Positions 4,334-21,250 of a DNA stretch of 64,000 nt are shown here, piece after piece. Numbering within the stretch: position 1 is the stretch's first letter; each line of letters opens with the position of its first letter. The translations under genes were made by a program, and so were the position numbers. Origin of the DNA: Micromonospora echinospora (GTDB lineage Bacteria; Actinomycetota; Actinomycetes; Mycobacteriales; Micromonosporaceae); the NCBI RefSeq assembly GCF_900091495.1, contig NZ_LT607413.1:5905001-5969000 (forward strand). Reading direction: 5' to 3'. The notes beneath the pieces were generated by a model. That model made no database searches and was not told the origin of the DNA. It worked only from the letters and a program-made list of their open reading frames with translations.

Positions 4334-5623
4334 ATGACCGGATCGGCGACGCGGGGCGCGGCAGCCGTCGTCGGGGCCCTCGTCCTCGGCGTCGCCACGG
4401 CGGTCCCGGTGCCCGCCGCCGGGGCGGCCTCCACGCCGACTGCCGCCCTGCCGAGCGCCACCGGACGGCCCGTCGGGGCCGGAGCCCCGCCGCCAGCGGT
4501 GCCGTGCCCGAGGCAGCCCGCCCCGGCGGTCTCCCGGCCACCCCGACCGGTGCCGCCGCCGGTCGCGCCGGCCGAGCGGGCCGTGGGCGGGACGGCGCTG
4601 GCCACCTCCGGGCTGGTCGTACCGGCCGGGTCGTCGCCGCCACCGAGGGTGACCGCCACCTCCTGGCTGGTCGCGGACCTGGACACCGGGGCGGTGCTGG
4701 GCGGGTGCGGCCCGCACGAGCCGGGCACCCCGGCGAGCGTGCAGAAGCTGCTGCTCGCGGCCACGCTGCTGCCCAGCCTGGACCCGCGGCGGGTGGTCAC
4801 GGTGACCCGCGCCGACCTCGACATCGAGCCGGGCAGTTCGGCGGTCGGGCTGGTCGAGGGCGGCCGTTACCCGGTCGAACTGCTCTGGCTCGGACTGCTG
4901 CTCCAGTCCGGCAACGACACCGCCAACGTGCTCGCCCGGCTGGGCGGCGGCGCGCAGGGCGCGGCCGGCGGGGTCCGCGCGATGAACGAGCGGGCCCACC
5001 GGCTCGGCGCGTACCAGACCCGCGCGGTGACCCCGTCCGGACTGGACGGCCCCGGCCAATTCACCAGCGCGTACGACCTGGCGCTGATCGCCCGGGTCTG
5101 CTTCGCCGACCCGACGTTCCGGCGGTACGCGCTCACCCGGCAGGCCCAGGTCCCGGCTCAGGGGCGGCTGGCGCGGGGCTTCCAGATCCAGAACGAGAAC
5201 CCGCTCGTGGACCGCTATCCGGGGGCGCTCGGCGGCAAGACCGGCTTCACCGACCTGGCCCGGCACACCTACGTCGGCGCGGCCGAGCGCGACGGTCGCC
5301 GGCTCGTCGTGACGTTGCTCGGGGCCGAGCCCCGGCCGCTGCGCGGCTGGCAGCAGGGGGCCGCGCTGCTCGACTGGGGGTTCTCGCTGCCCCGGAACGC
5401 CACGGTCGGCCGTCTGGTCGACCCGGGCGAGCCGGTGCCCGGTGCCACGCCGGCCGGTGTCCCGGCCACCGCCCCGGCCGTCGCCGCCGCTCCTGCCGCA
5501 GGCACGTCGGGCGGGTTCCGGTGGCCGGGTGTGGCGGGGGTCGGCCTGGCGCTGCTCGGGGCGATTCTGGCCGTCGTGACGCTGCGCCGTCGCCGGGGTG
5601 ACCGGACGTCCGCCGACGGGTGA
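4334..5623 (+). CDS. D-alanyl-D-alanine carboxypeptidase (DacA/PBP5 type, peptidase S11)
   Basis: This 429-residue exported enzyme trims the terminal D-alanine from peptidoglycan stem peptides. The N-terminus is a signal sequence followed by a Pro/Ala-rich stretch to about residue 110. All three penicillin-binding motifs are present: SVQK with the nucleophile near residue 135, SGN near 193 and KTG near 302. A C-terminal hydrophobic helix ending in RRRRGDR is a likely membrane anchor with the catalytic domain outside. The gene is divergent from kynureninase and converges on the BON gene 12 bases away. Confidence 0.93.
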   Translation: MTGSATRGAAAVVGALVLGVATAVPVPAAGAASTPTAALPSATGRPVGAGAPPPAVPCPRQPAPAVSRPPRPVPPPVAPAERAVGGTALATSGLVVPAGSSPPPRVTATSWLVADLDTGAVLGGCGPHEPGTPASVQKLLLAATLLPSLDPRRVVTVTRADLDIEPGSSAVGLVEGGRYPVELLWLGLLLQSGNDTANVLARLGGGAQGAAGGVRAMNERAHRLGAYQTRAVTPSGLDGPGQFTSAYDLALIARVCFADPTFRRYALTRQAQVPAQGRLARGFQIQNENPLVDRYPGALGGKTGFTDLARHTYVGAAERDGRRLVVTLLGAEPRPLRGWQQGAALLDWGFSLPRNATVGRLVDPGEPVPGATPAGVPATAPAVAAAPAAGTSGGFRWPGVAGVGLALLGAILAVVTLRRRRGDRTSADG

Positions 5624-5635
5624 CCCGGGGCGCGG

Positions 5636-5935
5636 TCAGCGTCGTGGTCGCTGCCGGTTGGTGAGCCGGAGGGTGTTGCAGACGTCGGCGACGCCGTGGA
5701 CGCCCCAGGCCAGTTCCCCGGCGGTGAGCCGGACGTCCGGACTCTCCACGGTGCCGCCGAGGATGACCACCCGGTTCTGCACCTCGACGACGATCCGCTG
5801 ACGGCGGGTGAGCCGGTTGCCGTTGAGCCGTTGCGTCACCTCGGCGGCGATGCGCCTGTCGTCGTTCCCCGGTGGCGTCGGGGACGGCTCGGAGGGACGG
5901 GCGTCGTCGTCGGGGAACGGCCAGGGCAGGACCAC
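5636..5935 (-). CDS. BON-domain protein
   Basis: This small protein of 99 residues has an acidic, proline-rich N-terminus (about 1-25) followed by one BON domain with the characteristic VVILGGTVES strand. BON domains bind phospholipid or act in osmotic and envelope stress proteins; no signal peptide is seen here. The GTG at 5935 has an AAGGAG site 7 bases upstream. It sits just downstream of the STAS-domain gene on the same strand (59-base gap), so the two may be co-transcribed. Confidence 0.75.
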   Translation of the reverse strand: MVLPWPFPDDDARPSEPSPTPPGNDDRRIAAEVTQRLNGNRLTRRQRIVVEVQNRVVILGGTVESPDVRLTAGELAWGVHGVADVCNTLRLTNRQRPRR

Positions 5936-5993
5936 GGGACTGCTCCTTGTGGACGGGTGGGGACGGGCGGGTGGTGGTTGCCGCCGGTCCGGG

Positions 5994-6611
5994 TCAGGGG
6001 TGCCCGCACGGCACCGCCGCCCGCCCTGCGGGGGAGGAGGTGGACCGGAGGCCGGCCAGGTGGGCCACCGCCTCGTCCCGGCTGGCGAAGGTCGGGACGA
6101 CGGTGTCCAGCCGCATGGTGCGCAGGACGGCGCGGACGAACGCCGACGGGGCGGCGAGGCAGAGCGTGGCACCCCGCTCGCGGGCCTCCCGTTGGGCCCG
6201 GACCAGCAGGCCCAGGCCGGTGGAGTCGACGAGGTGCACCCGACTCAGGTCCACCACCACGTCGCCGCCCATGTCCGCGGCGTGGCGCAGGGCGGCGCGG
6301 AGGGTGTCGCCGGTGTCCAGGTCGACGTCGCCGGTGGAGGTGACGACCGTGACGTCCTCGACATGGTCGATGCCCAGGACGCCACCGGGGCCGTGGGCGT
6401 CGCAGCCCGTCCGCTCGTCGGCCCCGGGCAGCAGGCTGCAGTGCGGGCAGCGGTGCGGCCCGGAGGCGAACGGCGAACCCGTCCAGCCGAGGTCGGTGAC
6501 CAGCGTCCAGACGACCTCGGCGTCGGGCAGCACGCAGGCGAGCCCGGTGGTGGACTCGCCACAGGTGTCGCAGATCAGAGTCATCAGCCGGTCTTCGGAC
6601 ACTACGGTCAT
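5994..6611 (-). CDS. STAS-domain protein with N-terminal zinc-ribbon-like region
   Basis: The 205-residue product has two parts. Residues about 10-65 contain CDTC and CPHC pairs that could bind zinc. Residues about 95-195 form a STAS domain, the fold of anti-sigma-factor antagonists such as SpoIIAA, with the motif HLVDSTGLGLLV in which the Ser is the usual phosphorylation site. Such proteins release sigma factors by binding anti-sigma kinases. No partner kinase gene is adjacent. The ATG follows a GGAGGAG site by 11 bases. The cysteine-rich part is unusual for a simple antagonist. Confidence 0.82.
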   Translation of the reverse strand: MTVVSEDRLMTLICDTCGESTTGLACVLPDAEVVWTLVTDLGWTGSPFASGPHRCPHCSLLPGADERTGCDAHGPGGVLGIDHVEDVTVVTSTGDVDLDTGDTLRAALRHAADMGGDVVVDLSRVHLVDSTGLGLLVRAQREARERGATLCLAAPSAFVRAVLRTMRLDTVVPTFASRDEAVAHLAGLRSTSSPAGRAAVPCGHP

Positions 6612-6848
6612 CCTGCTGTCGTCTCCTCCGGATCGGGGTGCGGGCACCGACCACCCCACCCTGCCGCCGGGGATTGGCGACCTCCGCGCGGATCCATGAC
6701 AGTTCCGTGACGATCCGCCCTCGCCGCCGCCCGGCCGAACGGTCGATCTATTGACATGTGTCACTGCCGTGGCAAGATTGCCAGATCCACGCCGAACAGG
6801 CTCCACCATCCGGGGAAACCCGACGGTCCGGCGAAGGCGGGAACGGTT

Positions 6849-7808
6849 GTGCAGGTGACAGCGGCGTACCGGACGATGCTGCGGATCCGGGTCCTCGAGG
6901 AGAGGATCATCGAGTCCGCCAACCGGGGTGAGATCGTGGGCTTCGTGCACCCGTACACCGGGCAGGAGGCGGTCGCGGCCGGGGTGCTCGCGGCCCGCCG
7001 TCCGGACGAGTGGGTGGTCAGCTTCTACCGCTGTCACGGGCACGCGGTGGCCGCCGGCCTACCGCTGGACGGGATCGTCCGGGAGATCCTCGGGCGCGCG
7101 GGCGGCCTCTGCGGGGGCAAGGGCGGCTCGATGCACCTGGCCGACCGGTCCCGCCACTTCCTCGGTGCCAGCTCGATCGTCGGCAGCCAGCTCTCCATCG
7201 CCGCCGGGGTGGCGATGGCGGAGAAGACCACCGGCGCCGGCCGGGCCACCGTGGTCTTCTGCGGTGACGGCGCGCTCGGCACCGGCGTCAGTTTCGAGAC
7301 CCTCACCATCGCGGCCACCCTCGGTCTGCCCCTCGTGCTGGTCTGCGAGGACAACGGCTGGCAGGACCACACCCGCAGCGACCTCGTCCGGCACCGGACC
7401 CCGACCGAACTGGTGGCCGGACTCGGCATCGACCACGTGGAGGTCGACGGCAACGACGTCGAGGCGGTCCACCGGGCCGCCGGGACGTTGCTGGCCCGGT
7501 GCCGGCGCGACCGCCGTCCCCAGGTGCTGGTGGCCCGTACCTACCTGCGGCACTACCACGCGCAGGTCGGTGGTGCCCGCCCCGCCGAGTACCGGCCGGC
7601 TGACGAGGTCGCGTACTGGCTGGCACGTGACCCGCTCGACATCGCCGCCGCCCGCGCCGACCTGACCGAGGACCGGCGGACCGGGCTCCACACGGAGACG
7701 GTCCGCGAGATCGACGAGGTCTTCGCCGCCGCGCTGGCCGCCCCACCACCGGATCCGGCGACGGCGGCCGGGAACGTCACCACGGAACCCGTGGCGGTGA
7801 CCCGGTGA
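6849..7808 (+). CDS. TPP-dependent 2-oxo acid dehydrogenase/acetoin dehydrogenase, E1 alpha subunit
   Basis: The 319-residue product matches E1 alpha subunits of pyruvate/acetoin dehydrogenases, which bind thiamine diphosphate and decarboxylate a 2-oxo acid. The TPP motif GDG begins near residue 139 and its Asn comes about 30 residues later (CEDNGW). RCHGHAVAAG near residue 65 and GGKGGSMH near 95 are family hallmarks. The GTG at 6849 gives the usual N-terminus; a longer frame starts at 6756 but adds unconserved sequence. The stop overlaps the start of E1 beta (GTGA). No E2 or E3 gene follows, so a free-standing carboligase or decarboxylase role is possible. Confidence 0.88.
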   Translation: MQVTAAYRTMLRIRVLEERIIESANRGEIVGFVHPYTGQEAVAAGVLAARRPDEWVVSFYRCHGHAVAAGLPLDGIVREILGRAGGLCGGKGGSMHLADRSRHFLGASSIVGSQLSIAAGVAMAEKTTGAGRATVVFCGDGALGTGVSFETLTIAATLGLPLVLVCEDNGWQDHTRSDLVRHRTPTELVAGLGIDHVEVDGNDVEAVHRAAGTLLARCRRDRRPQVLVARTYLRHYHAQVGGARPAEYRPADEVAYWLARDPLDIAAARADLTEDRRTGLHTETVREIDEVFAAALAAPPPDPATAAGNVTTEPVAVTR

Positions 7809-8797
7809 CCCGGCGTCACCCGGTGGGCACGGCCGTGCGGTCGGCGTTGACCGAACAACCCGACCTGCACATGTTCTGCACCTACCAGCAGCCCGACCTG
7901 GTCGACCTCTTCGGTCCCGACCGGATGGTCCGGCTGCCGATCGCCGAGAACGCGATGGTCGGTATGGCCGTCGGCATGGCGCTCGTCGGGCGGCGCGTCC
8001 TGGTCAGCATCGCCCGCGTCGCCTTCCTCTTCACTGCCTTCGACCCCCTGGTCAACCAGGCCACCAAGTGGCGGTACATGTCCGACGGGCAGTTCTCCGT
8101 GCCGTTGGTGATCCGGGGGCTGACCCGGGGCGACGAGCACCTCGGCGCGCAGCACGAGCACAGCGCCCACTCGATGCTCAGCCAGATCCCCGGCCTGGTC
8201 GTCGCCGTGCCGAGTTCGCCCAACTCGGCAGCCGGGCTGCTCGCCACCGCGCTGCGGCACCCCGACCCGGTCGTGGTGCTGGAGTCACCGCGTCTGTACA
8301 CGCCGGACTGGGCGGACCTGCCCGAACCGGAGGCCACCCCGGCGCCCCTGCCGTTCGGGGTGGCGGGCCGGGCCCTGGCCGGACGTGACCTGACCCTGGT
8401 CGGTATCGGCAACACGGTCGCGCTGTGCCTGCGCGCCGCCCGTCGGCTCGCCGGCCACGGACTGCGCTGCCAGGTGGTCGACCTGCGCACCGCCGCGCCG
8501 CTGGACCGGGACGGCACCGCCGGCCTGGTGGCCGGGGCGGGTCCGGTGGTGCTGGTGGACGAGGAACCCCGCGCCTCCTCCCTGCTCTGCGACCTCGGCC
8601 TGCACCTGGTCCAGGTGGGGGCGGTCGAACCGGACCGGCTGGCCTTCGTGTGCGGCGCGGCGGTGCCCGCTCCCGCCAGCCCGGTGCTGCTGGCGCCCCT
8701 GCTGCCGACGGTCGACGACGTCGTCGGGTCAGCGCTCGCCCTCACCCGGCGGCGGTACGCGGCCACGGGTGGGACGTCGACCGCCGGCTCGCACTGA
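7805..8797 (+). CDS. TPP-dependent 2-oxo acid dehydrogenase, E1 beta subunit
   Basis: This 330-residue partner of the upstream gene carries the transketolase-type pyrimidine-binding domain. IAENAMVGMAVGMAL holds the Glu that activates the TPP aminopyrimidine, GAQHEHSAHSML lies in the active-site loop, and a C-terminal transketolase domain follows. In this family alpha and beta form a heterotetramer. The GTG overlaps the stop of E1 alpha by four bases. The next gene is a class III aminotransferase. A set of E1 alpha, E1 beta and aminotransferase without E2/E3 suggests making an amino compound from a decarboxylated keto intermediate, which is inference only. Confidence 0.87.
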   Translation: MTRRHPVGTAVRSALTEQPDLHMFCTYQQPDLVDLFGPDRMVRLPIAENAMVGMAVGMALVGRRVLVSIARVAFLFTAFDPLVNQATKWRYMSDGQFSVPLVIRGLTRGDEHLGAQHEHSAHSMLSQIPGLVVAVPSSPNSAAGLLATALRHPDPVVVLESPRLYTPDWADLPEPEATPAPLPFGVAGRALAGRDLTLVGIGNTVALCLRAARRLAGHGLRCQVVDLRTAAPLDRDGTAGLVAGAGPVVLVDEEPRASSLLCDLGLHLVQVGAVEPDRLAFVCGAAVPAPASPVLLAPLLPTVDDVVGSALALTRRRYAATGGTSTAGSH

Positions 8798-8849
8798 CCG
8801 GCGTGGGCCGGGCGGCCCGCCGGGACCGGCACCAACTGGGAGGAACAGG

Positions 8850-10136
8850 ATGACGTCGGATTTTCCCGCGGACTACGCGGTGTGGCACGGCCTGTCGCCG
8901 ATGACGGACTTCTTCCGCGACGCGGACCCGGGCCAGTTCCTGGTGGAGGGCGACGGCAACCACGTCATCGACGCGGCCGGCCGCCGCTACCTGGACGCGC
9001 GGTCGTCCATGTGGAACCTGACCCTGGGACACTCCTGCGAGCCGGTGAAGGAGGCGATGCGCCGGCAGTTGGACACGCTCCCCTCGGGCACCGTCATGCG
9101 GTACGAACAGCCGCCCGTGGTGGCCGTGGAGTACGCCGCCCGCCTGGCCGCGCTGATGCCGGCCCCGCTACGGCACGTCCGGTTCGGCAACACCGGCAGC
9201 CAGATGACCGAGGCCGCGGCGATGCTCTCCCGCTTCCACCGCCGGGTGACCGGGCAGCCGGACCGGCGGTACGTCGTCGCCGTCCACAACGGCTACCACG
9301 GCACCGGGCCGCTGGCCACCGCGCTGACCGGCGAGCCGATCCTGCACGAGTGGTCCGCCCCGCTGGACGCGTACGTCCGCCACGTCACCGCGCCGACACT
9401 GCCGGAGATCCTCGCCCTCGTCGAGGAGATCGGCGTGGAGCGGGTCACCGCGGTCGTCGTGGAGCCGGTGCTCGGCAGCGACATCGGGGCCGTCTCGCTG
9501 CCCTTCCTGGAGTCGCTGGTCGCCGAGTGCCGGGCCCGGGACGTCCACCTCGTCGTGGACGAGGTGACCACCGGCGCCGGACGTACCGGCACCATGACGG
9601 TGAGCGAGCGGCTCGCGGTCGCCCCGGACATGGTCGTGCTCGGCAAGGGGCTGAGCGCCGGGTACTTCCCGCTGGCCGCGCTCGTGGTGGGCACGCCGAT
9701 CTTCGACGCGCTCGCCGACCCGCCGTTGCGGCTGGGCTTCCCGAACGGGTCCACCACCGACGGGCACCCGATCGGGATGGCCGCCGGCCTCGCCGTGCTG
9801 GACGTGCTCACCGCGCCCGGGTTCCTGGCGGGGATCCGGGAGACCGGCCGGCACCTGGTCGAGCTGCTCACCGGCCTGGCCGGCGAGCCGGGGGCGGGCC
9901 CGGTGGTGGGCGAGGGGATGATGCTGAGGTTGGAACTGGCCCACGACGACGGCACGCCCTGGTCGGTCCGGGAGGTGAACCGGTTCCGGCTGACCTGCCG
10001 CGACCACGGCCTGCTGACCAGCTACGCGCCGGGGTTCCTGCCGCTGATGCCGCCGCTGACCCTCTCCCGCGCCGAGTGCGGGGAACTGGTCGACCTGCTC
10101 CGGGCCGCGCTGCGCGCCCACAAGGTGGAGCGCTGA
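8850..10136 (+). CDS. Class III PLP-dependent aminotransferase (glutamate-1-semialdehyde aminomutase-like)
   Basis: The 428-residue product belongs to the class III aminotransferase family. HLVVDEVTTGAGRTG contains the Asp that binds the PLP ring nitrogen, and VVLGKGLSAGY contains the Schiff-base Lys. The N-terminal DARSSMWNLTLGHS and FGNTGSQMTEAA segments resemble glutamate-1-semialdehyde aminomutase-like enzymes rather than ornithine or 4-aminobutyrate transaminases. The ATG was chosen because GGGAGGAAC lies 7 bases upstream. It is probably in one operon with the E1 genes. It ends 10 bases from the convergent MFS exporter gene with no visible terminator between them. Confidence 0.87.
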   Translation: MTSDFPADYAVWHGLSPMTDFFRDADPGQFLVEGDGNHVIDAAGRRYLDARSSMWNLTLGHSCEPVKEAMRRQLDTLPSGTVMRYEQPPVVAVEYAARLAALMPAPLRHVRFGNTGSQMTEAAAMLSRFHRRVTGQPDRRYVVAVHNGYHGTGPLATALTGEPILHEWSAPLDAYVRHVTAPTLPEILALVEEIGVERVTAVVVEPVLGSDIGAVSLPFLESLVAECRARDVHLVVDEVTTGAGRTGTMTVSERLAVAPDMVVLGKGLSAGYFPLAALVVGTPIFDALADPPLRLGFPNGSTTDGHPIGMAAGLAVLDVLTAPGFLAGIRETGRHLVELLTGLAGEPGAGPVVGEGMMLRLELAHDDGTPWSVREVNRFRLTCRDHGLLTSYAPGFLPLMPPLTLSRAECGELVDLLRAALRAHKVER

Positions 10137-10146
10137 GACGATCAGG

Positions 10147-11550
10147 TCAGTGCCGCGCGGCCCGGTCGCCCGTGGGCTCACCGCCCGTCGGCTCACCGGC
10201 GGCTGGGCCGGCAGGAGGGCCGGGCTGGGAACGGGTGTCGGGTGGGTTCGCGTCCGGGCGACGCCCGATCCGCCCGGTGACGGTGGCCGTGCCGGCGAGG
10301 GCGAGCAGAGCGAAGCCGGTGAGGGTCCCCGGCAGCCCCCAGACGTCGGCGGCGACGCCACCGACGAGCGCCCCCACCGGTACGGCCAGGATGGACACCG
10401 TCCGGCTGAACGCGATGACCCGGCCGAGCCGCTCGGCGGGCACCAGTTGTTGCTGGAGCGTGGCCGACGCCACCGCCCAGACCGTCGCGCAGTACCCGAA
10501 GATCAGCTCGTAGACGACGAAGAGCAGGAGCGGGGCGGCCAGGGAGGCGGCCGGGATGAGCAGCAGCGAGCCCGCCGCGACCGGGGCGAACAGGGCGATC
10601 GAGCGGTCCAGCCCGAACCGGCCGACCACCCGCCGGGCGGTGGCCACGGCGGCCAGCGCGGCGGCGCTGTTCACCCCCCAGAGTGCCCCGACCTGGAACG
10701 GGCTCAGCTCCAGCGTTCGGTAGGCGTAGAGGGTGTAGAGGGCGCCGAGGCCGGCGCCGCCGACGTTCAGCGCGGCGGTGGCGAGGGCCAGCCGGCCCAG
10801 CAGCGGGATCTCCCGGAAGGTGCCCAGTCCCTTCCGCAGTGAGGTCCGCAGGTCCGCCGCCGAGCGGCGCAGCGCGGCCCACCGGGACACCGGCGCGGTG
10901 ACCGCCGGCTGCTCGGGGGCGCTCCGGTCGGCCCCCCGCAGCCGGCTGAACACGACCGCGGAGGCGAGGTAGCTCACCGTGTCGACGGCGATGGCGAGCG
11001 CCGCGCCGAGGGCCTGCACGAGCAGCCCGCCGATCGCCGGCCCGGCGATCTGGCCGGCGGCGCGGGCCCCGGCGAGGGAGGCGTTGGCACCGACCAGCCG
11101 GTCGGCGGGCACCAACCGGGGCAGCACCGCGTTGATCGAGATGTCGGTGACCCCGGAGAGGATGCCGGAGCACGCCGCGACCACCACCAGGTACGGCAGG
11201 CTGAGCACGTCGAGCAGGTACATCGCCGGCACCGACGCCACGACGAGCGCGTGCAGCAGGTCGTTGGCGACCAGCAGCCGGCGGGGTGAGCGGACGCTGT
11301 CGATGAGGACGCCGACCAGCGGCGCGGTCAGTCCCCGGGCGCCGTACTCCAGGGCGAAGATCAGCGCCGCCGCGACCGGCCCGGCGTCCAGCAGCAGCAC
11401 GGCCAGGGTGGGCAGCGCCAGCGCGGTGACGTGGGTGCCGGTGAGGCTGACGAGCTGCGCCACCACCAGCGGGCGGAGGGCGGACCGGCCGGGGGAGGGA
11501 GCCGTCGACACGGGGCGCACCGGACCTTCCGAGGCGGTGGACCCGGTCAC
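10147..11550 (-). CDS. MFS transporter (EntS-like), likely product exporter of the RiPP operon
   Basis: The 467-residue protein has about 12 hydrophobic segments and the layout of drug/siderophore exporters of the EntS group, with the cytoplasmic GVLIDSVRSPRRLL loop after the second helix. The C-terminal 45 residues are Pro/Gly-rich and probably disordered. The GTG start overlaps the TGA of the P450 gene (GTGA), so the two are translationally coupled. As last gene of the radical-SAM RiPP operon, export of the finished peptide and self-protection are the likely jobs. Confidence 0.87.
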   Translation of the reverse strand: MTGSTASEGPVRPVSTAPSPGRSALRPLVVAQLVSLTGTHVTALALPTLAVLLLDAGPVAAALIFALEYGARGLTAPLVGVLIDSVRSPRRLLVANDLLHALVVASVPAMYLLDVLSLPYLVVVAACSGILSGVTDISINAVLPRLVPADRLVGANASLAGARAAGQIAGPAIGGLLVQALGAALAIAVDTVSYLASAVVFSRLRGADRSAPEQPAVTAPVSRWAALRRSAADLRTSLRKGLGTFREIPLLGRLALATAALNVGGAGLGALYTLYAYRTLELSPFQVGALWGVNSAAALAAVATARRVVGRFGLDRSIALFAPVAAGSLLLIPAASLAAPLLLFVVYELIFGYCATVWAVASATLQQQLVPAERLGRVIAFSRTVSILAVPVGALVGGVAADVWGLPGTLTGFALLALAGTATVTGRIGRRPDANPPDTRSQPGPPAGPAAGEPTGGEPTGDRAARH

Positions 11551-12749
11551 CAGGTGACCGGCAGCTCGCGGGGCCCACGCAGGACGGTGCCGGTCTTCCA
11601 GGACACGCTACCGGGCGGTACGGCCAGACGGAGGGTGGGCATCCGGTCGCGCAACACGCCGATCACCTCCTGCAGCTCCATCGTGGCCAGTCGCGCGCCG
11701 AGGCAGCGGTGCGGCCCCCACCCGAACGCCAGGTGAGGTTCCGGATCGTCTCGGTCGAGCCGGAAGGTGTCCGCGTCCGGGAACGCCTCCTCGTCCCGGT
11801 TGGCCGAGATGGTGGAGACGAAGACCGCCTCGCCGGCCCGGACGGTCACCCCGTCGAACGGGACGTCCTCGATCGCCACCCGGCCCAGCCCGGTGCCGCC
11901 GCTGAGCGGGACGAACCGCAGCAGTTCCTCGACCACGGTCGGCAGCCGCGCCGGCTCCGCGCGCAGCGTCGCCCACAGGTCGGGCCGGGTCAGCAGCAGG
12001 TACGTCGAGGAGGCGATGTGACCGGCGACGGTCTCGAACCCGTTGACCAGCAGGGTCGCCCCGAAGGCGAGCAGCTCCCGCTCGGTGAGGCGGCTGCCCG
12101 CGTCCCGGGCCTGCACCAGCGCGCTGAGCAGGTCGTCGGCGGGTTGCTCGCGGCGCTGCCGGATCAGCTCCCGGAGGTAGGTGTCCAGCGCGTCAACCAC
12201 CGCCCGGAACTCCTCGGCGGTGACCTTCCGCAGAGCGGCCAGGGACTCGGTCCACCGGCGGAACTCGGTGCGGTCGGCCAGCGGCACGCCGAGCATCCGG
12301 CAGATCACGGTCATCGGCAACGGCAGGGCGAGGGCCTGGGTCAGGTCGGCCGGCGGTCCCTGCCGGACCATGTCGTCGACGAGCTGGTCGGCCACCTCGC
12401 GTACGTACGGCCGCAGCTCGTCGAGCCGTCGTTCGGTGAAGGCCACCGCCACCAGCCGGCGCAGCCGGCTGTGCTCGGGTCGGTCCACGTCCATGATGGT
12501 GCTGGCGACGGGCGGGACGGCGGTCTGCCGGGGCACGTCCGGGGCCGTCGCGGCGGCCCGGCTGAAGCGGGGGTCGGTCAGCACCTTGCGGACGTCCCGG
12601 TAGCGGGTGGCCAGCCACGCCTCGCCGGCGTACGGCAGCCGGACCCGGATCAGCGTGCCGCCGCGCCGTGCCTCGTCCAGCCGGGGGCTGATGCGGAGCT
12701 CGGCGTAGTCGAGGAACGGGTAGTCGGGCGCCTGGTCGGTGGGACGCAC
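11547..12749 (-). CDS. Cytochrome P450
   Basis: The 400-residue soluble bacterial P450 has the haem-binding motif FGWGPHRCLG with the cysteine ligand near residue 349, the ExxR pair as EELLR, and an I-helix segment NGFETVAG in which Glu-Thr stands in the oxygen-activation position. The HSRLRRL motif is also present. It probably oxidises the RiPP or an intermediate; substrate cannot be told from sequence. No ferredoxin gene is adjacent. The GTG has an AAGGAG site 7 bases upstream. It lies 67 bases after the DUF5825-like gene and overlaps the MFS gene. Confidence 0.92.
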   Translation of the reverse strand: MRPTDQAPDYPFLDYAELRISPRLDEARRGGTLIRVRLPYAGEAWLATRYRDVRKVLTDPRFSRAAATAPDVPRQTAVPPVASTIMDVDRPEHSRLRRLVAVAFTERRLDELRPYVREVADQLVDDMVRQGPPADLTQALALPLPMTVICRMLGVPLADRTEFRRWTESLAALRKVTAEEFRAVVDALDTYLRELIRQRREQPADDLLSALVQARDAGSRLTERELLAFGATLLVNGFETVAGHIASSTYLLLTRPDLWATLRAEPARLPTVVEELLRFVPLSGGTGLGRVAIEDVPFDGVTVRAGEAVFVSTISANRDEEAFPDADTFRLDRDDPEPHLAFGWGPHRCLGARLATMELQEVIGVLRDRMPTLRLAVPPGSVSWKTGTVLRGPRELPVTW

Positions 12750-12816
12750 CGCGCTGCTCCTTCCGGGTTCGTCCGCGCGCGTGCCGGACGCGGGTCGACG
12801 CCGACGCGGCGGGCGG

Positions 12817-13392
12817 TCAGATGGCCAGGTACGGCACCGGCCAGTGCCGCAGCCGGTAGGGCAGGACCAGCAGCCGCTGGTCGACCCGGAGCAGGAGCCC
12901 GGCCTCGGCGACCGTGTCGACCAGCTCCCGGGCCTCCGGCGCCAGGTCGTCCACGGTGCGTGCCTCGGCCATGGCGAGGAAGTGGTCGGCGCCCTCGTCG
13001 ATGGTGATCCGGGCGTCCTCGCTCTCCGGGCGGACGTCCTTGATCGAGACGAAGCCGGGGCCGCGCCGGTAGAAGAAACTGCCGTAGCGGTAGCCGGCGG
13101 TCCACGACCTGGCGTGGGCGGCGCTGTCCGCGTCCACCCCGCCGGAGGGCGGGACCAGGTGCACGTGGGTGTGCAGCGGGAAGCACGGCAGTCCGGCGAG
13201 CCGCCAGCGCAGCCGTACCGCGTGGCTGGTGACGTCGCGCAGGTAGCGCAGCAGCTCCAGGTCCTCGGCCGGGGACCGGCCGAAGTGGAGCACGGTGTCC
13301 GCGTCCACCGTGCGGTAGGTGAGCTCCGGCGTGACCGGCGGGAGGTCCGAAGCTCGGACAGCGGCGGTGTCGGGCGGGTTCGTCGTCGGCAT
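12817..13392 (-). CDS. DUF5825-like protein, companion of RiPP radical SAM C-methyltransferase
   Basis: The 191-residue product has no catalytic motif that I recognise. It begins with a Pro/Ala-rich leader, then has a charged alpha/beta segment with HTHVHLVPPSGG and a run RSWTAGYRYGSFFYRRGPGF. I assign it to the DUF5825 group because that family is repeatedly found beside radical SAM C-methyltransferases of this kind and the general character fits; this is from memory and unsearched. The start lies 2 bases after the radical SAM stop, so they are tightly coupled and a shared function (precursor binding or enzyme partner) is likely. Confidence 0.65.
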   Translation of the reverse strand: MPTTNPPDTAAVRASDLPPVTPELTYRTVDADTVLHFGRSPAEDLELLRYLRDVTSHAVRLRWRLAGLPCFPLHTHVHLVPPSGGVDADSAAHARSWTAGYRYGSFFYRRGPGFVSIKDVRPESEDARITIDEGADHFLAMAEARTVDDLAPEARELVDTVAEAGLLLRVDQRLLVLPYRLRHWPVPYLAI

Positions 13393-13394
13393 GG

Positions 13395-15239
13395 TCACCC
13401 CACCTTGATCGGAATGGCGTTGGTGGCGAGGCCGATCCACTGTCCGTTCTCGACGAAGACCAGGCCTCGCGTGACGAACCCGGCCAGGATCTCGCGCACC
13501 TGGGCCTGGTCGGCGGCGAAGCCGGCGGCGGTCACCTCCCGGTGCAGCGCGGGCAGGGTCCGGCCCGGCTCGGCCGCCCGGTACACCGCCCGGTGCAGCG
13601 GGTCGGTGACCCGGTGGTCGGTGGCGGGCCACCCCACCCGACGGTCCTCGAAGACGGTCGCGTCCGGTTCCTCGATCCGGAGCAGGGTGCTGTCCGGATA
13701 TCCGGTGTTCCACGCGTCGAGCAGGTCCCGCAGGCGCTTCGCCTCGGCCTCGGAGATGCCGGCCGGGTCGGTGTCGAAGAGGTAGACCATGTCGTGCAGG
13801 TCCGCCTCGGGCAGGGCGTACACGTGCCGGTACGCCTGCGCGGTGCGCCGGTTCGGGAAGCCCAGGGCGGGGTTCTCGAAGTAGGGGCTGAACCGTTCCA
13901 GCAGGATCCGGGACGCCCCGGCCGGCGGTTGCAGGTGCATCAGCGCCGGGATCTGCCGCAGCACGGGCTCGTAGTCCTCGGCGCGTTCCTCCGGGAAGCC
14001 GTAGAGCCAGTTCCAGGTGACGGTGAGGCCGGCGGACTCGCAGTCGCGCAGGGTGCGGACGTTGCGCGTCCCGGCCACCCCCTTGTCCATGATCTTGAGG
14101 ACCGGCGACACCAGGCTCTCGATGCCGGGCTGGACGTGACTGACCCGGGCCGTCCGGAAGATCTCGATCTCGGCCGGCTTCAGGTTGGACTTCACCTCGT
14201 AGTGCAGTCGCAGGTCCCAGTCGAGTTCGGCCAGCCGGGGCAGCACCGTGGTGAAGAAGCTGTTCGCGATGATGTTGTCGACCATGATCAGGTCGAGGGT
14301 GCGGTGCCGGCCGGTCAGCTCGCCGATCTCCTGGATCACGGCCTCCGGGCTCTTGGCCCGGAAGGTCATCAGCGTGCCGTTGAGCCCGCAGAAGGTGCAG
14401 TGGTGCTTCTCGCCCCACCAGCAGCCCCGGGCGGTCTCCAGCACGAGCTTCGGCTCGATGTGGGCGTTGACCGGGGAGATCTCCATCCGGGTGAACCAGT
14501 CGTCGAAGTCGGGGACCGGCACCTGCGTCATCGGCAGCGGCGACGCCTGCGGGTTCTGGTGTGCCACCCCGGCGTCGTCCCGCCAGCACAGTCCGGGCAC
14601 GGTGCGCAGGGTCTCCGGCGTGGCGCCGTCGGCGAGGACGCGCAGCAGCGCCGGAAACGACTTCTCTCCTTCGCCCCGCAACACGAGGTCGACGAAGGGG
14701 TAGTTGCGGTGCAGCGCCACGCCCATCGGCCCGTCGCAGTTGCCGCCGCCGAAGACGATCGTCACGTCCGGTCGGCGGGCCTTGATGCGCCGGGCCACGG
14801 CCAGGCTCGGCACGTTCTGCATGAAGGTGGTGCTGAAGCCGACCACGCGGGGGTGTCGCGCCAGCACCTCGTCGGTGACCAGTTCGACGAAGTCGGCGGC
14901 GTGCGTGCGCATCCGGCTGACCGGTGCGATGTCCAGGCCCCGTTCCGCCGCGTAGACCTGCAACGTCTCCACCCCGAAGTCGGGGTCGTCGTGCAGGGCG
15001 CCGGTGAAGACCCAGTCGCCCAGCCCGTCGAAGAGGCCCTCCTCGGCGACCGCCGTGTACTCCTGCGGACCCAGGTCGCCGCCGGTACGGGCCATCAGGA
15101 ACTCCGCCCAGCGCAGGTTCGCATGGTACGTCTCCGGGGCGGGCAGGCCAGCCCGGGTCGCCGCGGCGCGGAGCAGACCGAGCGGCAGCGAGGGTGACTC
15201 CAGCGACTGCCACGGCATCGCGACCAGGCAAACGGACAC
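13395..15239 (-). CDS. RiPP maturation B12-binding radical SAM C-methyltransferase
   Basis: The 614-residue protein starts with a cobalamin-binding-type domain (about 1-220, with GFSTTFMQNVPS and FGGGNCDGPMG), followed by a radical SAM domain. The cluster motif is CWWGEKHHCTFC, a CX7CX2C spacing near residues 272-283 instead of the usual CX3CX2C. This spacing and the GLNG that follows are hallmarks of the RiPP-associated radical SAM C-methyltransferases. Such enzymes add methyl groups to unactivated carbons of peptide residues using two SAM and methylcobalamin. The GTG at 15239 follows an AAAGGAG site by 9-10 bases. It lies directly downstream of the two short precursor genes. Confidence 0.9.
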   Translation of the reverse strand: MSVCLVAMPWQSLESPSLPLGLLRAAATRAGLPAPETYHANLRWAEFLMARTGGDLGPQEYTAVAEEGLFDGLGDWVFTGALHDDPDFGVETLQVYAAERGLDIAPVSRMRTHAADFVELVTDEVLARHPRVVGFSTTFMQNVPSLAVARRIKARRPDVTIVFGGGNCDGPMGVALHRNYPFVDLVLRGEGEKSFPALLRVLADGATPETLRTVPGLCWRDDAGVAHQNPQASPLPMTQVPVPDFDDWFTRMEISPVNAHIEPKLVLETARGCWWGEKHHCTFCGLNGTLMTFRAKSPEAVIQEIGELTGRHRTLDLIMVDNIIANSFFTTVLPRLAELDWDLRLHYEVKSNLKPAEIEIFRTARVSHVQPGIESLVSPVLKIMDKGVAGTRNVRTLRDCESAGLTVTWNWLYGFPEERAEDYEPVLRQIPALMHLQPPAGASRILLERFSPYFENPALGFPNRRTAQAYRHVYALPEADLHDMVYLFDTDPAGISEAEAKRLRDLLDAWNTGYPDSTLLRIEEPDATVFEDRRVGWPATDHRVTDPLHRAVYRAAEPGRTLPALHREVTAAGFAADQAQVREILAGFVTRGLVFVENGQWIGLATNAIPIKVG

Positions 15240-15307
15240 GTCATCGTCTCCTTTCTCGGGCCGGCCGGGTGGGCCCGGGTGGGCCGGCTTCCACCCGGGC
15301 CACTCGA

Positions 15308-15397
15308 TCACTTCTGGGTCTGGGGCCGGTTCAGCGGCACCAGGTACTTGCAGACGCCGTGCGTCGGCGCCTTCACCTTGACGACCGTGATCTTCAT
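15308..15397 (-). CDS. Short RiPP precursor peptide A (29 aa)
   Basis: This very short gene reads MKITVVKVK then a THGVCKY box, ending ...RPQTQK before TGA. It is supported by a strong GGAAGGGAGGTG site 7 bases before the ATG, by position between the diiron gene and the radical SAM gene, and by near identity with peptide B (first nine residues identical, THGV shared). At 29 residues leader and core are not clearly separable; a conserved N-terminal nine-residue block may be the recognition element and the residues from THGV onward the modified part. One Cys (residue 16), one Tyr and two Pro are present. I know of no characterised family with this sequence. Confidence 0.8.
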   Translation of the reverse strand: MKITVVKVKAPTHGVCKYLVPLNRPQTQK

Positions 15398-15554
15398 CGG
15401 AATCACCTCCCTTCCTGGGGCAGCGCTGTCAACGGATGGCGGGGGCCGGGTTGCCCTGCTCCCGCCGCGCGAGAACGCAGTGCTTGGAGACGCCGTGGGT
15501 CGACGTCTTCACCTTGACGACGGTGATCTTCATGGAGATCACCTCCCTTCCTGG
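15347..15554 (-). repeat. Tandem duplication covering ribosome site and 5' half of both precursor genes
   Basis: The 72-base block 15347-15418 is repeated at 15483-15554 (offset 136). The segments 15371-15418 and 15507-15554 differ at only a few of 48 positions. The repeat includes the last codons of the diiron gene, the ribosome site, the start codon and the first 17 or so codons, and ends inside the peptide. The 3' halves of the two peptides are unrelated. The pattern shows duplication of the leader with divergence of the C-terminal part. Confidence 0.85.
15429..15533 (-). CDS. Short RiPP precursor peptide B (34 aa)
   Basis: This is a paralogue of peptide A. It begins MKITVVKVK, has STHGVSKHCV in the centre and a basic, proline-containing tail ending PAPAIR. 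The Cys is at residue 19 here, where peptide A has Leu; position 16 is Ser, where peptide A has Cys. The ATG lies 5 bases after the diiron gene, and its GGAAGGGAGGTGA ribosome site is built from the last codons and stop of that gene, so the two are tightly coupled. The identical start of both peptides and their location beside the maturation enzymes are the evidence for precursor function. Confidence 0.82.
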   Translation of the reverse strand: MKITVVKVKTSTHGVSKHCVLARREQGNPAPAIR

Positions 15555-16297
15555 AACTCGATGTGGATGCCGGCGGCGGCGAGCCGGGCCCGGTGCCGCC
15601 GGTGGAACCAGGCCTGGACGCTCGCGGGCTCCCGGCCGGTGTGGGTGGCAAGGGCGACCGCGACCTCGTTCAGGCCGGTCAGTCCGATGCCGATGTCGTG
15701 CCACTCCTGGGCGTGTTCCGCCCACTCCTCGCGTCCCCGGGGGGTGCGGGTCTCCCGGGCCAGGAAGTTCAGCCCGATCGCGATGTGCCGGATCTCGTCG
15801 CGGCGGACGTGGTGGTACAGCCGCCCCAGCGGGTCGCCCGCGAAGACCTCGCCGAGCAGGATGAACTCGTCGGCCGCCAGCCCCTCCAGCATGGTGTGCA
15901 CCAGGGCCCGTCCCATGTACGGCAGGCTGGTCAGCCCGTCGTCGAGGGGCTGCATCGTCTCCTGGGCGTCGGCCGGTTCACCGCCGACCAGCTTGGCGTA
16001 CCGGTAGAAGGCGTCGGCGTGCCGGGCCTCGTCGGCGGTGGCGAGAGCCAGGCTGAACCGTAGCGGCGCGTCCTCGGTCTCGGCGGCGAGCGTCGCCGCG
16101 GCCACCAGCCCGGCCTGTTCGGCGTAGTAGCCGGCGGAGGCGACCCGCCAGGCGCGTTCGGCACGTGCCGGGTCGTCGCTGAACCGTCCCTCCCGGAGCA
16201 CGTCCTCGATACGCCAGGGGGTCCGGTCCCGGGTGACCTGGAAGATCCGGTACGCCACCTCGTCGGCGTCGAGGTCGTCCGGTCGCAGCAGGGTCAT
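15539..16297 (-). CDS. Ferritin-like diiron enzyme, first gene of the RiPP operon
   Basis: The 252-residue helical protein carries two carboxylate-histidine motifs of ferritin-like diiron proteins: DEARH with Glu residues in the helix before it, and DEIRHI in the second half, with EGLAADEFILL supplying a further Glu. Spacing and length resemble diiron oxygenases of the AurF/ribonucleotide-reductase-like kind and exclude bacterioferritin. It may hydroxylate, N-oxygenate or desaturate the precursor or a precursor-derived product. The stop codon is part of the ribosome site of precursor B. The gene faces the LuxR regulator across a 496-base gap. Confidence 0.82.
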   Translation of the reverse strand: MTLLRPDDLDADEVAYRIFQVTRDRTPWRIEDVLREGRFSDDPARAERAWRVASAGYYAEQAGLVAAATLAAETEDAPLRFSLALATADEARHADAFYRYAKLVGGEPADAQETMQPLDDGLTSLPYMGRALVHTMLEGLAADEFILLGEVFAGDPLGRLYHHVRRDEIRHIAIGLNFLARETRTPRGREEWAEHAQEWHDIGIGLTGLNEVAVALATHTGREPASVQAWFHRRHRARLAAAGIHIEFQEGR

Positions 16298-16793: not shown

Positions 16794-19721
16794 ATGCCGA
16801 TGGGGGTGACGCGGCTGGTGGGCCGCACCGACGAGGTGCGCACCCTGGCCCGGACCCTGACCTCCACCCGCGACGGAGACGGTCGGGCGGTGTTCCTGGT
16901 CGGCGAACCGGGCATCGGCAAGTCCCGGCTGGCCGCCGCGACCCGCGACCTCGCGTCCGCCACCGGGACGAGGGTGCTGCACGGTCGCTGCGGCGCGGTC
17001 GGCCCGGCCATCCCGCTGCGACCGCTGCGCGAGGCGCTGCTCTCGGTGACCGCCGTTCTCCCCCCGGCCGACCTCGCCGTGCTGGGGCCGTACCGGTCGG
17101 CGTTGGCCCGGCTGGTGCCGGACTGGGCCGTCGGCGACCCGCCCGGGCCGCAGCCGTCCGACCACGACCTGCTGGCCCTCGCCGAAGGGGTGCTCCGCCT
17201 CACCGGGCTGGCCGGCCGGGACCGGGGCTGTCTGCTCGTGCTGGAGGACCTGCACGACGCCGACGACCCCACCCTGGCCGTGCTCGACTACCTCGTCGAC
17301 AACGTCGGCCGGCAGCCGACCACGCTGCTCGGCACCCTCCGCGCCGACGCCGGACCGGCGCTGGACCTGGTCCGCGCCGCCGCCCGGCGCGGCGCCTGCC
17401 GCCTCGTGCCGCTGGGCCCACTCGACCCGGACGACCTGCGCCGGCTGGCCGGCGTCCGGCTGGACACGCACCCCGACGAACTGCCGCAACCCGCGATCGA
17501 CCTGCTCTGGGCGGGCAGCGGCGGCAACCCGGGCGTCGCCGAGGACACCCTCGGTGAGCTGGTCGACGCCGGCGTGCTGCGGCCCACCCCCACCGGGTGG
17601 CGGGTCGGACGTGAGCGGGTCGACGACCCGGCGGCCCTGCCCACCCTGACCCGCCCGGTCGACCGGCTCGCCCCGGCTCGGCGGGAACTGCTGTCGCTGG
17701 GGGCGACCCTCGGGCCGGTCTTCCTGGTCGCCGTCCTGTGCCAGGCCACCGGCCGGCCCGAACGGGAGGTGCACGAGGACCTGGCAGACGCCACAGCCGC
17801 CCGGTTCGTCCGACCGGACGGTCCGGAGCCGGACCGGTACCGTTTCGTCCACCCGGTGCTCGGCGGCGCGCTGCTCGCCCGCCTGGACCCGGCCGCGCGG
17901 CGTCGGCTCGCCCGACGGGCCGCCGACGCGGTGACGGTTGTCCACCGGGGACTACCCGGCCCCCACGTCCGGACAGCCGCCGACCTGTGGCTCCGGGCGG
18001 GCGACCCGGCCGCCGCCGGCCGTCTCCTCGCCGAGGCGGGGCGGCGCGCCGTCGACCGGGGCGCCGCCGAGGAGGCCGTGGAGCTGCTCCAACGGGCCGG
18101 CGACCTGCTCGCCGACGCCGAGGCCGCCCACCGCGCGACCGTGCTGGAGTCCCTGATCAACGCGCTGACCGAGGCCGGGGCCGCCGGCCGCGCGCTCGGT
18201 CACGCCGCCGCGCTCGGCGACCTCGCCGACCGACTCGATCCGCGGCACCGGGCCCGCCTGCACACCGCGCTCGCCTGGGCGGCGACCACCGCCGGTCTGG
18301 CCGGCGACGCCCGGCGCCACGTCGAGTTGGCCCGCGCGCTGCTCGGCCCCGACGCCACCGAGCCGGACACCGCCCCGGTCGACGTCGTCGCCGCCCACCT
18401 GACGGCCTGCGGCGGCGGACCGGACCGGGTCGCCGAGGCCGAGGCCGCCGCCCGGCGGGTCGAGACGGTGGCCCGCGCCGCCGGCCTGCCGGCCGTCGCC
18501 TGGCGGGCCGACCTCCTGCTCGGCGAGCTGACCCGACCCCGGGACCCGGCCGAGGCCACCGACCACCTGAACCGGGCCTGGTCGGTCGCGGTCCGGCAGC
18601 CCGCTCCGGTCTGGGAGATCCACTCCCTGGTCCGGCTCGGCGACGACGACGCGCTGCGCACCGGCGACCTGAACCGGCTGGAACGGGCCCACCGCACAGC
18701 GGCCCGCGTCGGCGCGCTGCACGCCCGCCACGAGGCGGAGACGCGACTCGCCCTGCACGCCGTCCTCCAGGGCCGGTTCACCGCCGCCGACCTGCTCACC
18801 GAGCGGGTGCTCGCCGCCGCCACCCGCCACCGGTCGCCACGCGCCGCCCGCCACGCCCTGCTGCTGCGCGCCACCGCCGCCGCCCACCGGGGACGCCACC
18901 GGGCGATGACCGACGCGCTCATCGGGTTCCGCCGCCACGGCGGCGACGCCGACCGGTACGCCCCCTGGACGCACGGACTGATCCGGCTCTTCGCCGCCCT
19001 GCTGCGCGAGGACCGTCCCCGGGCGCTGCACGAGTCCACACGCGCCGCGCGGGCCGACCGGGACCATCCGACGGTATGCCCCCTCGCCGGCCGGCACGGG
19101 CTGGACCTGCTGCTGCGCACGGTGACCGACACCGACGACCCGCCCGCCGCGCCGGCCGACGACCCGCCCGGCCGCCTCCGCTGGAACCAGCAGTTCCGGC
19201 TCTTCGCCCACGCGGTCCGGCACGGCCGCGCCGGCCGCGCGGACGAGGCGACGGACGCGGTGCGGGAGGCGGTACGGGTCGCCGCGCCGTACCCGGTGGC
19301 CGGGCACCTCGGCCTCCGCCTCGTCGGCGAGGCCGCCCTGACCGACGGCTGGGGCGAGCCGGTCGAGTGGCTGCGCGCCGCCGAGGACCACTTCCACCGC
19401 ACCGACGTGCCGGCGGTCGCCGCCGCCTGCCGGAGCCTGCTGCGCCGGGCCGGCTCCCGCCCGTTGCAGCGCCGCGCCGGCGTCGAGGAGATCCCCGGCG
19501 TGCTGCGCGCCGCCGGCGTGACACCCCGGGAGTACGAGGTGCTCCTCCTGCTCGCCGGCCGGCTCAGCAACCGGGAGATCGCCGACCGGCTGCACCTGTC
19601 CGCGCGGACCGTGGAGAAGCACGTGGCGAGCCTGATCACCAAGACCGGCCAACCGGACCGGATCGCCGTGGGACGGCTCGCCGCGACCGGTGCCCCACCG
19701 GGCGCCGCCGCCCAGGTGTAG
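16794..19721 (+). CDS. LuxR-family ATPase regulator (LAL type), likely cluster-situated activator
   Basis: The 975-residue product has the layout of large ATP-binding LuxR regulators. It has an N-terminal ATPase with Walker A GEPGIGKSRL near residue 43 and Walker B LLVLEDLHDAD, a long Ala-rich helical (TPR-like) middle, and a C-terminal LuxR helix-turn-helix (PREYEVLLLLAGRLSNREIA then TVEKHV) in the last 70 residues. Such proteins often activate natural-product operons. It is transcribed away from the RiPP operon from a shared intergenic region. The ATG at 16794 was chosen over the upstream frame because the family N-terminus (LVGRTDEV) begins right after it; a second ATG at 16800 is possible. 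Confidence 0.9.
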   Translation: MPMGVTRLVGRTDEVRTLARTLTSTRDGDGRAVFLVGEPGIGKSRLAAATRDLASATGTRVLHGRCGAVGPAIPLRPLREALLSVTAVLPPADLAVLGPYRSALARLVPDWAVGDPPGPQPSDHDLLALAEGVLRLTGLAGRDRGCLLVLEDLHDADDPTLAVLDYLVDNVGRQPTTLLGTLRADAGPALDLVRAAARRGACRLVPLGPLDPDDLRRLAGVRLDTHPDELPQPAIDLLWAGSGGNPGVAEDTLGELVDAGVLRPTPTGWRVGRERVDDPAALPTLTRPVDRLAPARRELLSLGATLGPVFLVAVLCQATGRPEREVHEDLADATAARFVRPDGPEPDRYRFVHPVLGGALLARLDPAARRRLARRAADAVTVVHRGLPGPHVRTAADLWLRAGDPAAAGRLLAEAGRRAVDRGAAEEAVELLQRAGDLLADAEAAHRATVLESLINALTEAGAAGRALGHAAALGDLADRLDPRHRARLHTALAWAATTAGLAGDARRHVELARALLGPDATEPDTAPVDVVAAHLTACGGGPDRVAEAEAAARRVETVARAAGLPAVAWRADLLLGELTRPRDPAEATDHLNRAWSVAVRQPAPVWEIHSLVRLGDDDALRTGDLNRLERAHRTAARVGALHARHEAETRLALHAVLQGRFTAADLLTERVLAAATRHRSPRAARHALLLRATAAAHRGRHRAMTDALIGFRRHGGDADRYAPWTHGLIRLFAALLREDRPRALHESTRAARADRDHPTVCPLAGRHGLDLLLRTVTDTDDPPAAPADDPPGRLRWNQQFRLFAHAVRHGRAGRADEATDAVREAVRVAAPYPVAGHLGLRLVGEAALTDGWGEPVEWLRAAEDHFHRTDVPAVAAACRSLLRRAGSRPLQRRAGVEEIPGVLRAAGVTPREYEVLLLLAGRLSNREIADRLHLSARTVEKHVASLITKTGQPDRIAVGRLAATGAPPGAAAQV

Positions 19722-19748: not shown

Positions 19749-21167
19749 GTGGAACTGGTGGAGGAGTCGGCGTACCGGTTCCGGATCGACCGGCACGGTC
19801 CGATGCGGGTGCCCGGCGTGGTCTTCGCCGCGCGGGCGCTCCTGCCCGACCTCGGCGAGGACCGGTCCCTGGAGCAGGTGGCGAACGTCGCCACCCTGCC
19901 CGGCATCGTCGGCGCCGCCTACGCCATGCCCGACGTGCACTGGGGGTACGGCTTCCCCATCGGGGGCGTCGCGGCCACCGACGTGGCCGCCGGCGGGGTG
20001 GTCTCCCCGGGCGGCGTGGGCTTCGACATCTCCTGCGGGGTACGGCTGCTCGCCGCCGACCTCTCCCGCGACGAGTTCCCCCGGCTCCGGGAGGCGCTGC
20101 TGGACGGCCTGGACGCGGCCGTTCCCCGGGGGATGGGCCGGGGCGCGGTGTGGCACCTCGGCGACCGTGCCGAACTGGACGCCGTGCTGCGGGGCGGCTC
20201 CCGGTACGCCGTCGAGCGGGGCCACGGCGTCGAGGCGGACCTGGCGCGCTGCGAGGACCACGGAGCGGTCGGCGACGCCGACCCGGCCCAGGTCAGCGAC
20301 CGGGCGGTGCAGCGGGGGCAGGGTCAGGTGGGCAGCCTCGGTTCCGGCAACCACTTCCTGGAGGTGCAGGCGGTCGACGAGGTGTACGACGAGCCGGTGG
20401 CCACGGCGTTCGGACTGCGGACCGGCCAGGTCTGCGTGATGGTGCACAGTGGCTCGCGGGGCCTGGGCCACCAGGTCTGCACCGACCACGTCCGGTCGAT
20501 GGAGCAGGTCATGCCCGGTTACGGCATCGAGGTGCCGGACCGTCAGCTGGCGTGCGCCCCGGTGGACTCCCCGGCGGGTCGGGCGTACCTGGGGGCGATG
20601 GCCGCCGCGGCGAACTACGCCCGCGCCAACCGTCAGCTGCTCGCCGAGGCCGCCCGTCGGGTCTTCACGCGGGTCGCCGGTGCTCGCCTCGACCTGGTCT
20701 ACGACGTCTCGCACAACCTCGCCAAGATCGAGGATCATCCGGTCGACGGGGCGACCCGCCGGCTCTGCGTGCACCGCAAGGGGGCCACCCGGGCGTTCCC
20801 GCCCGGACACCCGGACCTTCCCGCCGACCTGCGCCCGGTGGGGCAGCCGGTGTTGATCCCCGGCTCGATGGGCACCCCCTCGTACGTGCTGACCGGGGTG
20901 GCCGGCGCGCCGGCGTTCGCCTCCACCTGCCACGGCGCGGGCCGGGTGCGCAGCCGGAAGGAGGCCACGAAGACGGTCCGGGGCCAGGACCTGCGCCGTG
21001 ACCTGGCGGCCCGGGGCGTCGCGGTGCGCGGCACCTCCTGGCGTGGCCTGGCCGAGGAGATGCCGGAGGCGTACAAGGACGTCACGGCGGTGGTCGACGC
21101 CGCCGAGGGAGCCGGCCTGTGCCGCCGGGTGGCCCGGCTGGTGCCGCTCGGCGTGGTCAAGGGCTGA
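19749..21167 (+). CDS. rtcB: RNA-splicing ligase RtcB
   Basis: The 472-residue product is RtcB, the GTP- and manganese-dependent ligase that joins RNA 3'-phosphate or 2',3'-cyclic phosphate ends to 5'-OH ends. Conserved blocks appear in order: [27 protein letters not shown] with the metal-binding Cys, [30 protein letters not shown], the HRKGATRA block, [10 protein letters not shown] and CHGAGR with the His that becomes guanylylated. It begins with GTG 27 bases after the regulator stop. Its activator archease is encoded convergently just downstream, which supports a functioning pair. Confidence 0.95.
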
Positions 21168-21250
21168 CCCGCCCGCCGGCCCCCGTCCTTCCGGTCGTCG
21201 TGGTCGACGGTCGACCCGCCGGCCACCCGGCGGCCGGCGGGCCCGGACCG

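Follow-up and report, generated by a model that had tools for sequence, protein, structure and literature searches.

A 64,000-nucleotide stretch of the Micromonospora echinospora genome (hereafter the window, part of a 7.78 Mb genome in one contig) carries a cluster in which a peptide gene of only 29 codons lies between a gene for a diiron oxidase and a gene for a B12-dependent radical S-adenosylmethionine (SAM) enzyme. With a probability of about 80%, we read it as a cluster for a ribosomally synthesised and post-translationally modified peptide (RiPP), in which the leader of the micro-precursor would be held by a DUF5825 protein while the radical SAM enzyme C-methylates the peptide and the diiron enzyme oxidises it. 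Gene prediction and profile searches of the window recovered seven genes at 10147-16297, all on the minus strand, as a preliminary description of this DNA had stated. Those on which the argument turns are the following:

15539..16297, minus strand: diiron oxidase of R2lox/ribonucleotide reductase R2 fold, 252 aa (invariant ligands and predicted fold)
15429..15533, minus strand: A1, second micro-open reading frame (micro-ORF), 34 aa, MKITVVKVKTSTHGVSKHCVLARREQGNPAPAIR, a diverged copy without CKY, with GGAGGTGA upstream
15308..15397, minus strand: A2, micro-precursor, 29 aa, MKITVVKVKAPTHGVCKYLVPLNRPQTQK, with the GxC[KRH]Y motif and GGAGGTGA upstream
13395..15239, minus strand: B12-dependent radical SAM enzyme, predicted C-methyltransferase, GTG start (TIGR03975, PF02310, PF04055, CX7CX2C)
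12817..13392, minus strand: DUF5825 protein, putative leader-binding partner (PF19142, 83.3 bits against a cut-off of 25)

The peptide motif and the diiron gene

The evidence that carries this reading is the joint occurrence of peptide and oxidase across 116 distinct radical SAM loci (of 123; the window itself was not counted). A short ORF with a Shine-Dalgarno sequence and the motif GxC[KHR]Y, at most 450 bases upstream of the radical SAM gene, was present in 17 of the 19 loci that have the diiron gene and in none of the 97 that lack it (p = 1.7e-18, Fisher, uncorrected for kinship), while the antisense control gave 0/116. The two diiron loci without the motif, L007 (AANKY) and L039 (SLVY), both keep the tyrosine. 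Once the Shine-Dalgarno and distance limits were lifted, stray ORFs with the motif surfaced at L010 (at -6459, in a locus lacking the diiron gene) and at L120 (antisense), both of which we judged to be chance.

Seventeen of the 19 diiron loci came from the radical SAM query. The other two, L185 and L186, were found by the diiron query alone, as the only matches among 346 genomes of another family, and both have the peptide (GTCRY and GVCRY, respectively), the radical SAM gene and DUF5825. Among 250 genomes of the window's own family the diiron gene occurred in 8, adjoined every time by the radical SAM gene. The DNA pattern for THGxCKY, which was derived from the same loci and so speaks for specificity and not for discovery, occurred in 8 of 160 genomes of the genus, once in each and always within the cluster; these are the eight with a radical SAM enzyme more than 60% identical, and the reversed pattern gave no hit in any of the 160. 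Farther afield, 394 class-level genomes drawn evenly from the large class yielded only the window's own diiron gene, the order of the Alicyclobacillus genome (G739) had it in 2 of 59 genomes, both already known, and that of the Pyxidicoccus genome (G740) gave 6 matches in 145, its own and five weak ones. Genome G741 holds two weaker diiron homologues (L188 and L189), with no match to the window's radical SAM enzyme within ~7 kb.

The preliminary description expected its peptide motif to recur beside homologous enzymes. This failed for the strict pattern THG[VIA][CST] (0/80 loci) and held for the GxC[KHR]Y micro-ORFs counted above; the relatives, found via short ORFs before the radical SAM gene (48/80 loci), show THGTC, THGSC or GTC. 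A gene-encoded precursor is thus conserved beside modifying enzymes, which is the mark of a RiPP, and the recurrence of the peptide with the diiron and radical SAM genes in distant genomes strongly supports the proposal of a RiPP operon with micro-precursors. The combination looks like a real family of peptide natural products. No THGxCKY-type family is described in the literature searched, which included the accessible portions of PMC12257519 and PMC12951456 and left most subscription papers outside.

A1 and A2 have been described as twins, both beginning with MKITVVKVK and centred on THGVSK and THGVCK, respectively, and this is borne out: in a six-frame search of the window, KITVVKVK occurred twice only, in these two ORFs. 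The Shine-Dalgarno sequence GGAGGTGA precedes each of them and was found in the upstream bases of 15 of the 21 micro-ORFs compared; GGGGGTGA takes its place in L044, and in L156-L160 the listed GTG start would be the end of GGAGGTGA, placing the true start a few codons later. Between A2 and its counterpart in the closest relative, L114, two codons differ, both synonymously. The same comparison for A1 gave 1 synonymous and 8 non-synonymous differences, which indicates that A1 is a fast-changing copy in which CKY has turned into SKHC. To judge by their sequences, A1 and A2 are both genes; of the twin precursors, however, A2 is conserved and the A1-type copy was seen only in the window and L114. 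In the cluster comparison, the nearest relative of the window was G071.

Relatives of the micro-precursor range from about 21 to 34 residues and include MKIKKVAIKKVTHGSCKYHVVLKQQGK (M. phaseoli), MKIKKVSIKKVTHGTCKYAVILK (M. qiuiae), MTIKKVTIKTPAHGTCKYLVPTRKAEK (L156) and MKKVQIPRKVKQGTCHYMIGS (Alicyclobacillus shizuokensis), with two copies in L161. The conserved site is internal in these peptides; the 4 to 14 residues behind it are conserved only in part (several have LVP), and the actinomycete members begin with a stretch of ~10 residues, [KTA]I[KT][KRV]V..., in which hydrophobic residues alternate.

Leader and core across the radical SAM family

On a quick tree of 117 radical SAM proteins (excluding the duplicate loci L187, L118, L119 and L162, identical rows and rows of fewer than 520 residues), the diiron label needed 6 changes, and GxCxY together with the diiron gene appeared in two separate branches, one of Micromonosporaceae, G1004 and G782 and the other of Alicyclobacillus (with a long-branch warning). 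By this tree, the distribution of the diiron gene is not one simple inheritance. A leader-like start was detected by a strict test in 16 of the 19 diiron loci and in 10 of the 97 others. L003, an Actinoplanes locus whose long branch falls within the diiron loci, gave no diiron match either at the locus or across its genome, and its short ORF, MKIKVENVKRPDETRTKKELPRSTGIIPIRSLENK, keeps an MKIKV start and lacks the GxCKY core. Because, within these branches, the N-terminus can persist where the core varies along with the diiron gene, we read the peptide as a leader joined to a core. The earlier view that the peptide has no separate leader and core is not supported, given the recurrence of a similar N-terminus without GxCKY in some diiron-less relatives and the RRE-like domain suggested below.

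Other short ORFs stand at related enzymes, of which there are 519 among the candidate stretches, with several ORF types upstream. A looser leader pattern drew in 18 diiron-less rows from Streptomyces with ORFs of the EIKKVVVREEE...EKRPTR type. Many Streptomyces loci (many of L008-L041, L051, L065 and L072), all diiron-less, have a conserved ORF of ~26-28 aa of this kind, (M/V)EIKKVVVREEE...EKRPTR, before the radical SAM gene, with an uncertain and often GTG start; these ORFs are probably a sister family of the micro-precursors. The genome of the window also encodes a second TIGR03975-like enzyme with DUF5825 (L121, G000 6115101-6116942, 49% identity), which has a different short ORF upstream, MALKKTKIRPQTSMHALILPPPNRIAAGGKRSTPKDSPS, and no diiron match. 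Further types occur at L130, L173 (MRKNVVENDPINGNRDQLRSAGIQVTVTVKIKF), L053-L066, L125 and L167, the last a 60-aa ORF with repeated [DSG]YK[VI] units.

Enzymes of the cluster and the proposed pathway

The diiron protein has no Pfam match, and a sequence search of the PDB returned nothing at E <= 1. In an alignment of 45 sequences (37 of 100 proteins, 7 loci and the window), E60, E90, H93, E138, E168 and H171 were invariant. The AlphaFold2 model (pLDDT 94.3) found R2lox proteins as its best Foldseek matches (E from 1.1e-4; TM, by query, 0.60-0.70). These results support the initial designation as a ferritin-like diiron enzyme, with a predicted R2-type fold and six-ligand metal site. With R2lox and ribonucleotide reductase R2 it shares the predicted fold and the six-ligand ExxH diiron site; it differs from R2lox in lying far under the NCBIfam cut-off (16.4 bits against 194; the Alicyclobacillus member reaches 33.3) and in having a peptide gene beside it. 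R2lox proteins contain a Val-Tyr ether cross-link, and we know of no natural substrate for them.

The radical SAM enzyme passed the curated TIGR03975 threshold (579.8 bits, cut-off 281.85) and matched PF04055 and, narrowly, the B12-binding domain PF02310 (32.6 bits, cut-off 32.1). This agrees with its first description as a CX7CX2C enzyme with a cobalamin domain; the cysteine motif, here CWWGEKHHCTFC, is present in 120 of 120 matches above 300 bits. The query was translated from 15245, two codons ahead of the start, which left the results unaffected. DUF5825, already named in the preliminary description and clearly matched here, was aligned from 46 of the 92 loci found plus the window. Its model gave no Foldseek match at E <= 0.001, while a second structure aligner superposed its C-terminal domain on TbiB1, a RiPP recognition element (RRE) of lasso peptide biosynthesis, at 12% sequence identity. 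This suggests an RRE-like domain at the C-terminus, distinguished from RRE domains such as TbiB1 by a fused N-terminal domain and a B12 radical SAM partner.

Comparison with 13 close Micromonosporaceae loci (L114-L120 and L156-L161) set the conserved cluster at 6756-16297, wider than 10147-16297, the genes for E1alpha, E1beta and the aminotransferase having been overlooked at first. The remaining genes are:

11547..12749, minus strand: cytochrome P450, accessory (PF00067; FGWGPHRCLG)
10147..11550, minus strand: predicted major facilitator superfamily (MFS) exporter (PF07690, 92.8 bits)
8850..10136, plus strand: class III aminotransferase, start approximate (PF00202)
7805..8797, plus strand: thiamine-diphosphate E1beta-like subunit (PF02779/PF02780)
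6756..7808, plus strand: thiamine-diphosphate E1alpha-like subunit, start approximate (PF00676)

E1alpha, E1beta, the MFS protein, DUF5825 and the diiron gene were each present in 13/13 of these loci and the aminotransferase in 12/13 (missing in L116). The P450, listed as an extra tailoring step in the preliminary description, was found in 6/13 and is not a core step. Elsewhere, E1alpha and E1beta adjoin the cluster in L185, which also has a methyltransferase; a short-chain dehydrogenase follows the DUF5825 or MFS gene in L044, L048 and L186, and one lies upstream in L039.

In the proposed pathway, the first ~10 residues would form a short leader that the RRE-like domain at the C-terminus of DUF5825 holds, probably by taking it up as an extra beta-strand. 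DUF5825 would thereby present THG[TSV]CKY to the radical SAM enzyme, with C-methylation the most likely reaction, and the R2lox-like oxidase would oxidise the GxC[KRH]Y site, possibly joining or hydroxylating the cysteine and tyrosine. A C-methylated and oxidised peptide is a prediction consistent with the family names. The P450 may oxidise further in some strains, in Micromonosporaceae E1alpha/E1beta and the aminotransferase may attach or process a small unit, either an acyl group or an amine, and the MFS protein would export the product. The analysis shows the gene content, its conservation, the joint occurrence of motif and oxidase and the predicted folds; from these we infer that every one of the enzymes acts on the peptide, and likewise the chemistry, the order of steps and the binding and removal of the leader. 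No peptidase family was seen among the 16 predicted window genes scanned (50-24910), and one may be encoded elsewhere in the genome. More tentatively, the diiron enzyme might cross-link the ends of a three-residue Cys-x-Tyr (C-[KRH]-Y) unit, or oxidise the two residues in some equivalent way, in a 21-32-residue precursor, which with a cryptic RRE in DUF5825 holding the leader and C-methylation of the same peptide would make a new RiPP class of actinomycetes and Bacillota.

Several genes lie near the cluster in the window. A class III lanthionine synthetase, LanKC (NF038151, 1122.6 bits, cut-off 575), is encoded in 50-5266 beside a protein of 781 aa with a kynureninase as its C-terminal half (284.5 bits, cut-off 246.4). 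A scan of two gaps, 2700-3000 and 5200-6100, revealed no obvious LanA precursor. Just past a regulator gene at ~16803-19721, in 19749-22342, genes for an RtcB RNA ligase and an Archease-domain protein adjoin on opposite strands. Over 8 kb at 40000-48000, the GC skew is strongly positive (~0.3) and the AT skew negative, unlike the rest of the window.

Known systems and alternative explanations

The closest known system is that of the clavusporins, which, according to PMC12257519, are C-methylated by a homologous pair of B12 radical SAM enzyme and DUF5825; the leader is removed by the prolyl oligopeptidase MpcP (PMC12951456). A Streptomyces clavuligerus megaplasmid locus (L196), probably the clavusporin locus by its name and gene content, has a radical SAM gene (43.8% identical), DUF5825 and MFS genes and an adjacent alpha/beta hydrolase gene, with an unannotated 39-aa ORF upstream, MQKDVIHNDPLAGDEENRKPSVGITITVPFRNAEDADED, that is unrelated to A2 by eye; no diiron homologue was detected in it. 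The shared enzyme pair could mean that the window encodes an ordinary clavusporin-type C-methylated peptide with an incidental diiron enzyme. We hold this to be very improbable, since L196 has a different short ORF and the hydrolase, its radical SAM enzyme belongs to a different branch of the tree, and the presence of the diiron gene follows the peptide motif. Membership in the clavusporin type was accordingly rejected on the unrelated short ORF and the lack of a prolyl oligopeptidase among the 16 scanned window genes. The S. clavuligerus comparison indicates that the window and the presumed locus share the enzyme pair, as well as having an MFS gene and a short ORF each, but that the precursor is different and an R2lox-like oxidase is added in the window. 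PMC12257519 also describes biphenomycin-like pbs clusters, in which a B12 radical SAM enzyme acts on the peptide after an iron oxygenase, relatives with YHxYxY that have a second B12 radical SAM enzyme with DUF5825, and cross-linking by such enzymes (e.g., PbsB); they differ from the window in their iron enzyme, an MNIO (DUF692), and in their precursor motif, FHAFRF or YHxYxY. Daptides share the class III aminotransferase; among NCBIfam models the window's enzyme matches the daptide one best, at 254.4 bits, below the cut-off of 450, and membership was rejected on that score. The daptide precursor and other enzymes differ from those of the window.

The small-molecule enzymes bear on another explanation. 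In pearlins, 3-thiaglutamate is made on a peptide carrier, and the peptide here might likewise be a carrier on which a small molecule is built, with E1alpha/E1beta, the aminotransferase and the P450 acting on the released piece; the body of the peptide would then not be the product. The precursor is tiny, and E1 genes in all 13 close loci and an aminotransferase in 12 amount to more small-molecule chemistry than is typical of a RiPP. A carrier is nevertheless unlikely, because the conserved site is internal, ahead of the partly conserved tail, while the C-terminus is not conserved, and because the E1 and aminotransferase genes were not found in the examined flanks of L044, L048, L007, L039 and L186. 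Finally, short ORFs directly ahead of an enzyme gene could encode attenuators, peptides with a regulatory role, or, given the histidine and cysteine in the motif of most members, peptides that bind metal, and not substrates. Such roles are hard to reconcile with two copies in both the window and L161, with a motif tied to one oxidase across two distant radical SAM branches and with an N-terminus kept in some relatives without the core, and we consider them the least credible of all.

If the RiPP reading is right, it points to a defined and easily synthesised peptide on which an R2lox-like enzyme probably acts. Precursors of down to 21 residues belong to a size at which ordinary gene calling easily misses ORFs, and the role of DUF5825 in holding the leader, if true, would extend to the wider TIGR03975/DUF5825 family.

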